64,000 nucleotides of DNA from Verrucomicrobiota bacterium (GTDB lineage: Bacteria; Verrucomicrobiota; Kiritimatiellia; RFP12; UBA1067). Below are positions 3,037-64,000 of this stretch, piece by piece. Made by a program: the position numbers and the translations under genes. The stretch's first letter is position 1; every line of letters starts with the position of its first letter. The notes beneath the pieces were generated by a model. The model was not told where the DNA came from. It did not search any database and was given only the letters and a program-made list of their open reading frames with translations. Location of the stretch: positions 45,845-109,844 of the forward strand of contig JAHFSX010000021.1 in the NCBI GenBank assembly GCA_023269675.1, in the 5' to 3' direction.

Positions 3037-4212
3037 ATGAAGGGACTCCTCCAGAAAACACCCAAGGTGGCGCTGTTTCTCGCCACCAACGAGAAAGCCG
3101 GGCGCGACAAGCTCCAAGGCGTCCTGCGCTACGTGCGGCTGCACACGCCGTGGAACATCCACCTCGTCGAAAACCGGATCGGCGAGCAGCAGCTCGGCGA
3201 CCTGCGCGCATGGGGCGCGACCGGCGTGATTGTGGCGCGCATGCCTGAATCGGTCGGCACGGTCGCGCGTGCCGGGCTGCCCACCCTGGTCATGGATTCC
3301 CCCGTATTTTACGAGGCACGCCTGCCGCGCGCCTCGTTTGTGACCTGCGACTCCGCAGCCGTCGGCCGTGCCGGCGCCGAGGCCTTTCTCAGGCAGGGGT
3401 TCCGGCATTTCGGGTACGTGGCGGACGCGCAGTCCTGGGACTGGTCGGATCAGCGCTGCCGGGCCTTCCGCGACTGCCTCGCGCAGGCCGGCTATCCGTG
3501 CGCGGTCTACGGCGGCCTCACGGCGCGGGCGCGCAGCGACTGGGCCACCGACCAGGAGCGGATGGCGCGGTGGCTGCAGGCGCTTCCCCGTCCGACGGCC
3601 CTGCTCGTGGCACGCGACGGCCGGGCGCGGCAGGTGCTGGAGACGTGTCAGCTCGCGGGGCTCGACGTGCCGGGCCACATCGCCATCCTGGGCGTGGACA
3701 ATGAGGAGGTCCTGTGCGAGAACACGACCCCCACCCTCTCCAGCATCCAGCCCGACTTCGAGGCGGCCGGATACCAGGCGGCCCACCTGCTCGAACAGCT
3801 CATGCGGCGGACTCTGCGCAACCCCCAGACGCTTTCCTACGGCGTCAAACAGATCGTCGTGCGGGAGTCGAGCCGGCTTGCCCAATCCGTGGACCGTCGC
3901 TGCCTGCGCGGGCAGGAGTTCATCCGCCTCAACGCCTGCGCGGACATCGGCGTGCCCGACATCGCCCGCCACATGGGGGTGTCGCGCCGCATGGCGGAAG
4001 TGCTCTTCCGCAAGCATGTGGGACAATCGATCCTCGACGAGATTCAGCAGACGCGCCTCGCGCGTCTGAAAACCTTCCTGTGCGAAACCGCGCTGCCCAT
4101 CGGACAGATCAGCGAGCAATGCGGCTATCAGACCGAAATGCACGCCAAACGCCTTTTCAAGCGGCAGACAGGGATGACCATGCGCCAGTTCCGCAAAGCC
4201 GGCGGCAGGTGA
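3037..4212 (+). CDS. XylR-like AraC-family transcriptional regulator (LacI/periplasmic-binding-type sensor domain + AraC HTH)
   Basis: N-terminal substrate-binding fold (GVDNEEVLCENTTPTLSSIQPDFEAAGYQAA) followed by AraC HTH (DIARHMGVSRRMAEVLFRKHVGQSILDEIQQTRLARLKTFL). Confidence 0.88.
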   Translation: MKGLLQKTPKVALFLATNEKAGRDKLQGVLRYVRLHTPWNIHLVENRIGEQQLGDLRAWGATGVIVARMPESVGTVARAGLPTLVMDSPVFYEARLPRASFVTCDSAAVGRAGAEAFLRQGFRHFGYVADAQSWDWSDQRCRAFRDCLAQAGYPCAVYGGLTARARSDWATDQERMARWLQALPRPTALLVARDGRARQVLETCQLAGLDVPGHIAILGVDNEEVLCENTTPTLSSIQPDFEAAGYQAAHLLEQLMRRTLRNPQTLSYGVKQIVVRESSRLAQSVDRRCLRGQEFIRLNACADIGVPDIARHMGVSRRMAEVLFRKHVGQSILDEIQQTRLARLKTFLCETALPIGQISEQCGYQTEMHAKRLFKRQTGMTMRQFRKAGGR

Positions 4213-40054: not shown

Positions 40055-40641
40055 TTCTTATCCGACGTGGCCGAGGGCCGAGAGGGCGTCGACGAGGCGC
40101 TGGACGGTCGGGGCGCGAACGCCGGTGAAGTGGCGGGCGAGGGGCTTCGCGCCGTGGGTTTGCTGCCACGCGGTCTGGCGGATCACGCCGCGCACGAGAG
40201 CGATCTGGTCGGCGAGGGTGTCGGGCCAGGCGAGAGGAGCGGGAGAGAGGTCAGAGGTCGGAGGTCAGAGTTCGGGAGACCGAGATCGGACTGCACGGCG
40301 ACGCTGCCGGCTGAAGCCGGTACAACATGCGGTTGCTGATAAGCGGGACGGAGATAGCGGACTGTGCCGCGTGATTCCTCGTCGGCGCGGGCGCGGTTGA
40401 GGGCGACCAGCCGGTCGAGAATGACGGCGTCTGCGAGCGCGGCGTCCCACCCGTAGGCGGCAGCAACGGCCGCGTCGAGTTCGTCATGGAGCTGGCGCAG
40501 GACGGTGACGAGTCCCCGATCGTGGATGGCGCGCTGCTTGGCGGTGAGCGTCTCGTTGGCGCGGATCGCCTCCAGCACGGCGCAAAACTCCGTGAGGAAA
40601 AGCTGGCAGATGGAAGCTTCCTTAAGGCCGAGAGAGCTCAC
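40055..40641 (-). pseudogene. Frame-disrupted C-terminal remnant of MmeI-like class I SAM-dependent DNA methyltransferase
   Basis: Frame 1: LTAKQRAIHDRGLVTVLRQLHDELDAAVAAAYGWDAALADAVILDRLVALNRARADEESRGTVRYLRPAYQ; continued in a different frame: APLAWPDTLADQIALVRGVIRQTAWQQTHGAKPLARHFTGVRAPTVQRLVDALSALGHV. Catalytic motifs upstream are absent. Confidence 0.72.
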
Positions 40642-60744: not shown

Positions 60745-60821
60745 GCCCCTGTAGCTCAGTTGGATAGAGCAACGGATTTCTAATCCGTCGGTCGCCTGTT
60801 CAAGTCAGGCCAGGGGCGCCA
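60745..60821 (+). tRNA. tRNA-Arg (anticodon TCT)
   Basis: GCCCCTG TA GCTC AGTTGGATA GAGC A ACGGA TTTCTAA TCCGT CGGTC GCCTG TTCAAGT CAGGC CAGGGGC G CCA. Confidence 0.95.
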
Positions 60822-60822
60822 T

Positions 60823-60865
60823 CAAAAAGCTCAGTAAAGCACCATTTTTATTGGGCTTTTTTCAT
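60823..60865 (+). terminator. Rho-independent terminator after tRNA-Arg
   Basis: AAAAGCTCAGTAA / TTATTGGGCTTTTTT hairpin plus T-rich tail. Confidence 0.75.
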
Positions 60866-61278
60866 TTTTACCGCTCGCGGCCATCTAAGGCCCGTACATG
60901 CACTTACCTGACTTTCACCCCTTTACAACCTCGATTTTGGTTACAGTTTAGTCACACCCCCACCGGGCTGTAACCACCTGTTACCAATCCCCCACTTGAC
61001 CGCCACCCCGAGCCTAGCTTCAAAAGCGCCCAAGGACGGCCGGGATCAAAGCCGCAGCACGTCAATGGCTGCGTACACTGCAGATGGCTTGGCCCAGTGT
61101 AATTGATGCCAAGGATCATCCTTCGTCCGTGATGCGGAAGCTGACCCCTGAAAGTAAAGAACGCGCACGGGGACACGGGATCGTTCAGTGTGTTGATGGC
61201 CCTTGCCGGACATCAAGCATCGACTGAAGTCGTCGTCGTCATCCCCGTGCGCGTGTTCTGATTGTGCATGTGCGTGGC

Positions 61279-61330
61279 GATGATCCCGGCAGCCTCAGGA
61301 GCAAAGCCCTGACGGCATACCGGGATCATC
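61279..61330. repeat. Long stem-loop with GATGATCCCGG / CCGGGATCATC arms
   Basis: Perfect 11-bp arms plus inner GCC..TCAGG / CCTGA..GGC pairing; no T tract. Confidence 0.75.
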
Positions 61331-61356
61331 TAGCACTCCATCCCATATCCTCCACG

Positions 61357-61671
61357 TTAGGCTGCGCTCCCCGCCCGTCCATTGGTCAGCAGTGCGTCAA
61401 TGTCGGATGCCAAGAAGCCGCGCGCTTTGGTTGAACCCGGGAAACGGACTTTGTTCAGCCCGCCGCGATCTACGATGTTGTGGAGTGTTCGCCTTGTGCA
61501 GGCCAGCCTTTGCGCCGCCTCGGCGAAGGAAACGATGCGGTCATCCTCCTTCGCTTTTACCTCACTGGTATCCAGTCCCAGTGTGCGGAGCAGGGTCTCG
61601 CGTTCCGTCTTCGTCCGAGGCGGGTCACTATCCAAAACAGCCTTCATCGCAATCAACGTCGAATTCTTCAT
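61357..61671 (-). CDS. Excisionase-like helix-turn-helix protein
   Basis: DRIVSFAEAAQRLACTRRTLHNIVDRGGLNKVRFPGSTKARGFLASDIDALL. Confidence 0.72.
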   Translation of the reverse strand: MKNSTLIAMKAVLDSDPPRTKTERETLLRTLGLDTSEVKAKEDDRIVSFAEAAQRLACTRRTLHNIVDRGGLNKVRFPGSTKARGFLASDIDALLTNGRAGSAA

Positions 61672-61870
61672 GTACTAGGTCCAATTCATTCTCGATTATT
61701 CCCTTCTGCAGCTCTCGGGCCTGCTCTGATTCATTGCCCTTGAACGGGCTTGATTCATACGGCATCTGGGCACCGCACTCGCGGCACCTGGATGCAAGAA
61801 ACTGTGAGTCTGATCCAAGGCTTAGGCTATGACATGCGCACCCCTTACCCCGTTGGGTCCGGGTCATCAC
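61628..61870 (-). CDS. Small putative zinc-ribbon protein
   Basis: CACHSLSLGSDSQFLASRCRECGAQ paired Cys motifs; 4-nt overlap with the upstream ATPase gene. Confidence 0.55.
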   Translation of the reverse strand: MMTRTQRGKGCACHSLSLGSDSQFLASRCRECGAQMPYESSPFKGNESEQARELQKGIIENELDLVHEEFDVDCDEGCFG

Positions 61871-62910
61871 AGGAATCTGAACCCGCCCACCACCGGCTGC
61901 GCATTTTGAGCCATGGCGTAATCAGGGGCTTGGACAGCGACCGTCACGCATTGGCCTCGGAAGATCCGGGACGCGGCTCGGCTTCCGGTCTGTTGGCCAA
62001 GTTCAGCCGGATGGAAGTTCGACGTGTACAGCGTCGGCAACATGTTCTGGGCGCGGGCGTCGACGATGGTTTCGAACGTCGTGCCCGCGACGGTGGCGTT
62101 GTCGTTCCTGTCGGTGTAACGCCCCTGCCCGATGTCGTCGACGAACAGAACCGGTGCAGAGGCCAGATGGGCAAGGTAGTCATCGAACGAATTTTGCTGC
62201 CTAACCCCATCCCAGTTGTAGTACCTGTAATAGATAGGATCTCCACGCGCCTCGGCGCGACGCTTAAGAAAATCAGTCGCGATATCCTGGATGTCGATGA
62301 AGACGCATGCGAGAAACGGATTGGCAGCGGGTTCAGACACGGAGTAGTTAGCAGTCCATCTGGCGATGTGCTTGAAGGCGGACCACGCGAGGTGGGTCTT
62401 GCCGCAACCGTTGCCGGTGTAGGACCGGGTCGGGCTGCCGTAGACGTAGATGCTGCCGGCACCGCTGGTGACGACGGCAGGTGCCCAACCCATCACCACG
62501 TCCTGAGCCCAACCGAATACGGAGCCCCTGACCTCGGCGAGATGATCTCTGCACGGCCCCATCACCTTGAAGGTGTTGAACTCGGCGGCATGGTAGAGCC
62601 TCGGAACCAGCCTCTGGAGCTTGGCCTCGACGGCTTGGCGGCCCCTTGGGTCCACGGCGTAGAACAGGTTCATGTAGTGACGATCGCAGAGTCCGTACCA
62701 TTGGCGGGGGTGCGAGGTGTCTGCGTTGAGGACCAGGCTCGTGCCGACGCTGAAGCGGGTCCTGCAGAGCATGCACTCGTGTTTGTCGGTTGTGGGTGCA
62801 GAACTCGGAACCTCATGAAGCGGAACCCTGAGCCTGAAGGGGCTGAGGTCGCAAAGAGGTTTAAAATCCTGCATCTCTCCAGCAACGGTGGTAGTGGAGG
62901 TGGAACTCAT
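61867..62910 (-). CDS. DnaC/IstB-like AAA+ helicase-loader ATPase
   Basis: Walker A-like YTGNGCGKTHLAWSAFKHIA; Walker B APVLFVDDIGQG; cysteine motif CMLCRTRF. ATG 62910 has AGGAGG 6 nt upstream; ORF also opens at GTG 63006. Confidence 0.78.
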   Translation of the reverse strand: MSSTSTTTVAGEMQDFKPLCDLSPFRLRVPLHEVPSSAPTTDKHECMLCRTRFSVGTSLVLNADTSHPRQWYGLCDRHYMNLFYAVDPRGRQAVEAKLQRLVPRLYHAAEFNTFKVMGPCRDHLAEVRGSVFGWAQDVVMGWAPAVVTSGAGSIYVYGSPTRSYTGNGCGKTHLAWSAFKHIARWTANYSVSEPAANPFLACVFIDIQDIATDFLKRRAEARGDPIYYRYYNWDGVRQQNSFDDYLAHLASAPVLFVDDIGQGRYTDRNDNATVAGTTFETIVDARAQNMLPTLYTSNFHPAELGQQTGSRAASRIFRGQCVTVAVQAPDYAMAQNAQPVVGGFRFL

Positions 62911-63002
62911 CTCCTTCCTCCTCTTCTTCTGTTGTTCATTTGTTCTCCTTCTTTCCTTCTTCTCTTCTTCTATTATTAAGGTGTGTCTACACAGCCGGGC
63001 TA

Positions 63003-63632
63003 TCACCGTCTCCTCTGTTGTCCACGCCGTTGTACTAGGGGCTGTCTCGTCCGCTGTCCAGAGGGTTGGTCACTCTGTTGCATCGTCTGTTGTCCATCGA
63101 GCGCGTAAGTGCCGTATCTGAGCATGGTTATGACGACACCATGCTGTCCCATGACCCGAACGCTCAGTTCGCCATCGCTCGCAAACATCCTGAGCCAGCG
63201 GCGGACCGTGGGACGCGCGATCCCGGCATCGATCGACAACTGTAGAAGCGATGTCGCGAGCATGCCGCGGCCGATTTCGATGAGTTGACCGCCAATCACA
63301 GCCTTGCGCATCTTCCTGTTGGCCCGCATCAGCAAGTCCATGAAGAGGTGCGCCTTGTCCCAAGGTTTCTCCGTCCAGAACCAGCGCTGTTGGAACGTGC
63401 GGTAACACGGCATGTAGCCGTACTGGTTGTGATCCTCACCCTCGAAGGCACCGTCACCGCCACCACCAGGGGCGGCGCTTTCACGCGGCGCCGCAACGGA
63501 CTCCGCCGCGTCTCCTGAACCCGCGTCCTCGTCTCCGTCATCGAACACGATTTCGGGGGCGAACGCCGCGAACGCTGTGGGGACACTGGCCGGTGCGGCT
63601 TCAGGTCCCGCTTCTACTTGTGATTTTGACAT
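63003..63632 (-). CDS. Phage-type replisome organizer / DnaD-N-like winged-helix replication initiator
   Basis: GYMPCYRTFQQRWFWTEKPWDKAHLFMDLLMRANRKMRKAVIGGQLIEIGRGMLATSLLQLSIDAGIARPTVRRWLRMFASDGELSVRVMGQHGVVITMLRYGTYA; Gln-rich tail. Confidence 0.74.
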   Translation of the reverse strand: MSKSQVEAGPEAAPASVPTAFAAFAPEIVFDDGDEDAGSGDAAESVAAPRESAAPGGGGDGAFEGEDHNQYGYMPCYRTFQQRWFWTEKPWDKAHLFMDLLMRANRKMRKAVIGGQLIEIGRGMLATSLLQLSIDAGIARPTVRRWLRMFASDGELSVRVMGQHGVVITMLRYGTYALDGQQTMQQSDQPSGQRTRQPLVQRRGQQRRR

Positions 63633-63710
63633 TTCATGATCCTTTCGTATTGGTTTTGAAGACGGGCGGACGCACAGAGCACCGTACCCTGTGCGCCGCC
63701 CATGACCGGC

Positions 63711-64000
63711 TTAGGCCGTGGGCTTGGCCTCAGCTGCCGCCGGCTTCACGTCCACCGCCGGCTGTTCGGCACCGGGCGCAGGCGCGAGCGCAGCGCCTTC
63801 CTTCTCCATGCTCTCCAGCTGGAGCCGGAGCTGCTCGGCGAGAGCAGGATTGATTTGCTTCATCGCCTCGTAGCTGTCACGAAGCGACTTCTTCTTGCGG
63901 CCATGTTCCAGCGCCGCCGGCTTCTCGCCCTTCTCAGAAGCCTTGCTCTGGCCCTTATCGGTAATGGGGTGAACCTTCTCCAGCTCACGGCGCAGGACGC
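63711..64000 (-). CDS. Hypothetical protein, C-terminal part (truncated by window edge)
   Basis: Minus-strand frame open to the window end: VLRRELEKVHPITDKGQSKASEKGEKPAALEHGRKKKSLRDSYEAMKQINPALAEQLRLQLESMEKEG...EAKPTA*. Confidence 0.6.
   Translation of the reverse strand, partial: VLRRELEKVHPITDKGQSKASEKGEKPAALEHGRKKKSLRDSYEAMKQINPALAEQLRLQLESMEKEGAALAPAPGAEQPAVDVKPAAAEAKPTA

Follow-up and report, generated by a model that had tools for sequence, protein, structure and literature searches.

Several kinds of mobile element resemble the island described here. Tycheposons of Prochlorococcus and similar cargo islands have a tyrosine recombinase, a tRNA integration site, a wide size range (4–200 kb, as cited in PMC10872708), and cargo, which in tycheposons consists of nutrient genes. 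Phage satellites (PICI, P4-like, PLE, and PICMI) encode an integrase, an excisionase-like HTH protein, and replication functions without structural genes, and they frequently carry defense cargo (PMC11389934). In Firmicute and other phages, a DnaD-like domain is found beside a DnaC/DnaI-like helicase loader. ICEs and mobilizable elements usually combine tRNA integration by a tyrosine integrase with ParB-like proteins and large cargo.

The island at the right edge of our window (the whole 64,000-nucleotide stretch of DNA that was analyzed) shares features with each of these. Its likeness to tycheposons is one of anatomy, drawn from their description: the tRNA site, the tyrosine recombinase, and the cargo are all present here. 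The cargo, however, is defensive rather than nutritional, the host is different, and the replication module, which consists of DnaD, DnaI/DnaC-like, and ParB-like proteins, is unlike that of tycheposons. The DnaD/DnaC pair itself resembles those of phages, but it is linked here to ParB-like genes and defense islands, not to phage structural genes. The island can be placed among the hitcher elements, broadly defined (PMC11389934), with a tycheposon-like anatomy (PMC10872708), and its own feature is the replication module combined with defense cargo.

The last position of the window is also the last of contig C2, so the element in the window is truncated by the assembly. The features of the element, together with the ends of its siblings, are listed in Table 1. 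The tRNA-Arg(TCT) gene of the window is the only full copy found in the genome. Past this gene, the GC content falls from 65.7% (1–60744) to 59.2% (60900–64000), and a minus-strand array of open reading frames (ORFs) begins, as the initial annotation had described. Read from right to left, the array consists of the C-terminus of a ParB-like protein, a DnaD-like protein, a DnaC-like protein, a small CxxC ORF, and an excisionase-like HTH protein (xis). The ParB-like C-terminus, which continues the block, had previously gone unnamed. Contigs C2 and C18 share a 120-bp identical stretch at their ends. The assembler probably stopped at this near-identical repeat, and the middle of the window's element is therefore missing.

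Table 1 Features of the island end in the window and att repeats of the sibling islands. Positions refer to the window unless a contig is named.
Feature	Position	Strand	Details
tRNA-Arg(TCT)	60745..60821	+	ARAGORN; integration target and attL; 3' half recurs at attR
attL direct-repeat region (tRNA anticodon arm to terminator)	60771..60864	+	94 bp, 90% identical to C8 attR
Conserved non-coding element edge	60900..61356	.	89% identical in C18; GGATC-containing inverted repeats; strong predicted fold
Tandem 11-bp motif TTTGGTTACAG-TTTAGTCACAC	60936..60958	+	Probable integrase arm-type sites (putative arm role)
Excisionase-like HTH protein (xis), 104 aa	61357..61671	-	phrog_66 4.6e-5; PF12728 3.5e-4 (under curated cut-off)
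Small CxxC ORF	61628..61870	-	Doubtful as gene; frame broken in C18 and C73
DnaI/DnaC-like AAA+ helicase loader	61867..62910	-	phrog_50 1.6e-20; N-terminal Cys/His motif; Walker A/B
DnaD-like replication initiator/replisome organizer, 209 aa	63003..63632	-	phrog_2514 4.2e-19 (DnaD-like helicase loaders)
ParB-like protein, C-terminal part	63711..64000	-	Open at contig end; ParB-like match made with C73 homolog
C18/C13 island, tRNA-Arg(CCT)			55-bp repeat at 98%
C73 island, complete, tRNA-Leu(TAG)	C73:44393 and 118586		Exact 58-bp repeats, 74,193 bp apart
C34 island, complete, tRNA-Phe(GAA)	C34:23587 and 41655		Exact 73-bp repeats, 18,068 bp apart

The region 60771–64000 is probably the tRNA-side end of an island inserted in tRNA-Arg(TCT), with the other end lying on contig C8 from position 83330. 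A search of the same genome found an attR-like copy of the tRNA-Arg(TCT) 3' half and terminator at C8:83330–83422, in which the tRNA fragment begins in the anticodon arm. About 110 bp from this fragment is a tyrosine integrase gene (C8:83531–84913; PF00589, 1.9e-21). The initial annotation had looked to an integrase and an attR farther to the right as marks of an integrated element, and both are present on C8. Integration at this tRNA is supported by the attR-like fragment and its adjoining integrase, by three sibling islands, and by the same-genus genome G001, and the synteny of the block is not conserved. G001 keeps the upstream MFS gene and tRNA-Arg(TCT), with ppdK starting approximately 0.7 kb downstream. 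The right flank of C8 was not detected beside the tRNA of G001, so the empty site is visible on the left side only. Just within the attL end in the window, and likewise within the attR end on C8, is the tandem 11-bp motif, TTTGGTTACAG-TTTAGTYACAC, which also occurs at ends of the islands C18/C13 and C34. The T-arm of the tRNA, compared across relatives to identify the native copy, proved too variable for this purpose. As the C2-to-C8 join spans an unassembled gap, two islands may have inserted serially at tRNA-Arg(TCT), or attR may have been shifted by rearrangement, instead of C2 and C8 holding one element.

The assignment of the replication genes to a phage type, also proposed initially, is supported by the PHROG matches and by a match to DnaI. 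The DnaC-like protein carries an AAA+ domain, Walker A and B motifs, and homology to known helicase loaders, and a profile of three DnaC-like sequences matched DnaI in the PDB (4m4w, 1.3e-4). All three copies retain, without change, the Cys and His residues C47, C50, C76, and H79 as well as the Walker A (GNGCGKT) and Walker B (LFVDD) motifs. Together with the DnaI match, this conservation suggests a DnaI-type protein with an N-terminal motif that, judging from its residues, may bind metal. The Cys/His motif is located in this protein and not in the small CxxC ORF, which had been annotated as a Zn-ribbon protein. In C18 and C73, the DNA homologous to that ORF contains frameshifts, and no convincing family match was found for it; consequently, we do not treat it as a confirmed gene. 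The DnaD-like protein, initially read as DnaD-N/replisome-organizer-like, matches a PHROG family of DnaD-like helicase loaders (Table 1), and its C73 homolog is 35.8% identical to the DnaD protein of Lactobacillus phage iA2 over 106 aa (1e-12). The excisionase-like HTH protein is also present as annotated, with weak family matches, of which the PHROG match is better than the Pfam one. It is 97% identical in C18 and 51% identical in C34, where the homolog directly adjoins the integrase, supporting a role as a directionality factor. The AlphaFold models of DnaC and DnaD (mean pLDDT 35 and 42, respectively) are too poor for use.

The non-coding block beside attL is a candidate replication origin, partition site, or structured RNA. 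The predicted fold of 60995–61350 (minus strand) is far more stable than those of shuffled sequences (z −5.9, and −6.1 for the sister copy), and the segment contains the inverted repeats GATGATCCCGG/CCGGGATCATC and ACGCGCACGGGGA/TCCCCGTGCGCGT. Conserved pairing is weakly supported (P about 0.03–0.05, simple permutation), and an Rfam search of the block gave no match. The motif CGGGATCAT was considered as an origin iteron, but it is unconvincing alone, with four copies near the att end versus 27 window-wide (one mismatch allowed).

The genome contains four such islands, in tRNA-Arg(TCT), tRNA-Arg(CCT), tRNA-Leu(TAG), and tRNA-Phe(GAA), and all four have a GC content below that of their flanks. 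Of these, C73 (74.2 kb) and C34 (18.1 kb) are complete, and three share the replication module. The C73 island encodes an integrase, an HTH protein, DnaC, DnaD, and two ParB-like proteins. The C34 island has the integrase and HTH protein in common, but an AAA_25 ATPase and a primase-like protein replace the other replication genes. C2 and C18 match at 78% across the whole 3.3 kb, and dnaC-dnaD of C73 matches C2 at 70%. Between the window and C18, identity is 93–97% around xis, falls to 56–80% across dnaC, and reaches 99% where the contigs end, whereas the integrase at the corresponding C13 end (gene at C13:59204–60613) is only 39% identical to that of C8. An AAA ATPase common to C8, C13, and C73 is 93–97% identical. 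The C73 copy adjoins the tRNA and is frameshifted (97% identical to that of C8 over 367 aa), so this island may be decaying. The swapped module genes of C34 and the regional variation in identity between the window and C18 indicate that the islands are mosaic. From these sequence comparisons, the integrase, the replication module, and the cargo seem to have been exchanged independently among them.

A second tyrosine integrase (C73:103168–104334), approximately 30% identical to the C8, C13, and C34 integrases, is located within the 74-kb island. The C73 island was also considered as two tandem insertions, the integrase at 103168 marking the second, but a search allowing up to seven mismatches in 30 bases revealed no third tRNA-Leu end. 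Elsewhere in the assembly, an integrase at C45:33979–34464 lies beside a tRNA-Met (tRNA-Met and tRNA-Arg(ACG) are near C45:35156–35325), and the genes adjoining it resemble, by eye, a type III restriction-modification system.

The islands mostly carry anti-phage defense genes. C73 encodes the BREX proteins BrxA, BrxB, BrxC, a PglX-like methylase, and BrxL, and in addition GmrSD-N, a 1997-aa Cap4-nuclease/AAA protein, SIR2, LmuB-like, and Schlafen-type proteins. It also encodes a sliding clamp and an exonuclease with phage relatives. C34 carries type I restriction-modification genes (HsdM/S/R-like, identified by eye), and C8 carries a CAP12/Pycsar-type TIR protein. The cargo of C13 is less clearly defensive because it consists of DUF6119, amidohydrolase, and DUF4062 proteins.

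The DnaC profile detected the loader only in its own genome among 192 searched. Its absence from the 191 related genomes suggests a recent arrival. No close relative of the DnaC-like protein was found in a species-genome collection, viral contigs, or phage records at the sensitivity used; there was one weak match, to a ZapE-family plasmid protein. Within the order, two further genomes encode DnaD-like proteins; none was confirmed in viral contigs. A decayed relic with the same arm-type sites and a C-terminal integrase fragment is present at tRNA-Arg(CCT) in G021, a genome of another genus (contig C117; L101:481–807 and 3794–4037). In a genome of another family (G115:C21:37082–37157 and 40348–40396; L088), a second tRNA-Arg(TCT) 3' fragment lies approximately 3.2 kb from the intact gene, and the pair possibly delimits a small island at the same tRNA.

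The Phage_portal, HK97 capsid, relaxase (PF03432), and coupling protein (PF02534) families are all absent from the whole assembly. In the complete C73 island, most ORFs of which were scanned with Pfam, no recognizable capsid, portal, terminase, relaxase, or T4SS gene was found, and no structural gene appeared among those scanned in the element DNA of C8 (12 kb) and C13 (30 kb). Since selected Pfam families were searched in a draft genome (94.8% complete), the absence of transfer genes is strong but incomplete. The initial annotation had suggested a phage or an ICE, and neither name is supported by these searches. A prophage, intact or defective, with its structural genes in the unassembled middle would account for the phage relatives of the DnaD/DnaC-type genes, the excisionase-like HTH protein, and the AAA ATPase, and the assembly does indeed lack the middle part of the element in the window. 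However, the terminase, portal, and capsid genes by which a temperate phage would be recognized were not found in the scanned ORFs of the complete C73 sibling, which has the same replication module. With the genome-wide absence of portal and HK97 capsid families and the results for C8 and C13, this makes a prophage very unlikely. Integration in a tRNA gene, ParB-like proteins, and large cargo would equally suit an ICE or a relaxase-carrying integrative mobilizable element. Such an element should encode a relaxase and a T4SS or coupling protein, and in view of the two families missing genome-wide and the scanned C73 ORFs, we regard it as highly improbable.

An integrase (C8) and a replication module without structural genes (C73 ORF scans) are what a strict phage satellite, packaged by a specific helper phage, would contain, and the excisionase-like HTH protein and defense cargo agree with this. 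No packaging, capsid-remodeling, or capsid-interference gene was recognized, however, and the genome has no portal- or HK97-encoding prophage that could act as helper; no helper is known. Moreover, 74 kb is above the usual size of phage satellites, and we consider a strict satellite rather unlikely. The frameshifts in the C73 AAA gene and in two copies of the small CxxC ORF, as well as the relic in G021, would be consistent with an immobile remnant, that is, a domesticated defense island that has lost excision. Against this, the reading frames of the integrase, dnaC, dnaD, and xis genes are undisturbed, the att repeats are exact or nearly so, and the absence of the loader gene from the 191 relatives points to a recent arrival; an immobile remnant is unlikely.

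We favor, with a probability of about 0.8, the reading that the window element is an excisable, probably self-replicating, defense-carrying integrative island that would need a helper to pass between cells. The att repeats, the integrase, the gene content, the siblings, and the lack of detected transfer genes, all observed in the sequence, form its basis. The integrase, together with the arm-type sites and the HTH directionality factor, would recombine the tRNA 3' half to yield an excised circle. In the circle, the DnaD-like protein would mark the origin, for which the non-coding block beside attP is a candidate, and the DnaI/DnaC-like loader would deliver the host replicative helicase to it. 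The ParB-like protein may help in partition or regulation. The cargo region carries mainly defense genes. As no capsid or conjugation genes of its own were detected, movement between cells would occur only with a helper.

Tentatively, these islands could represent a separate family, specific to this lineage, of self-replicating integrative islands that combine a DnaD/DnaI-type module and ParB-like proteins with BREX-class defense cargo. Integrase swaps would have given such a family access to several tRNA genes per chromosome, and transfer between cells would proceed via a helper. Four related islands in one genome, two of them with both ends, provide a compact case of how defense systems travel in a little-studied lineage. 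The presence of replication genes without recognized transfer genes raises the testable question of what carries such islands.
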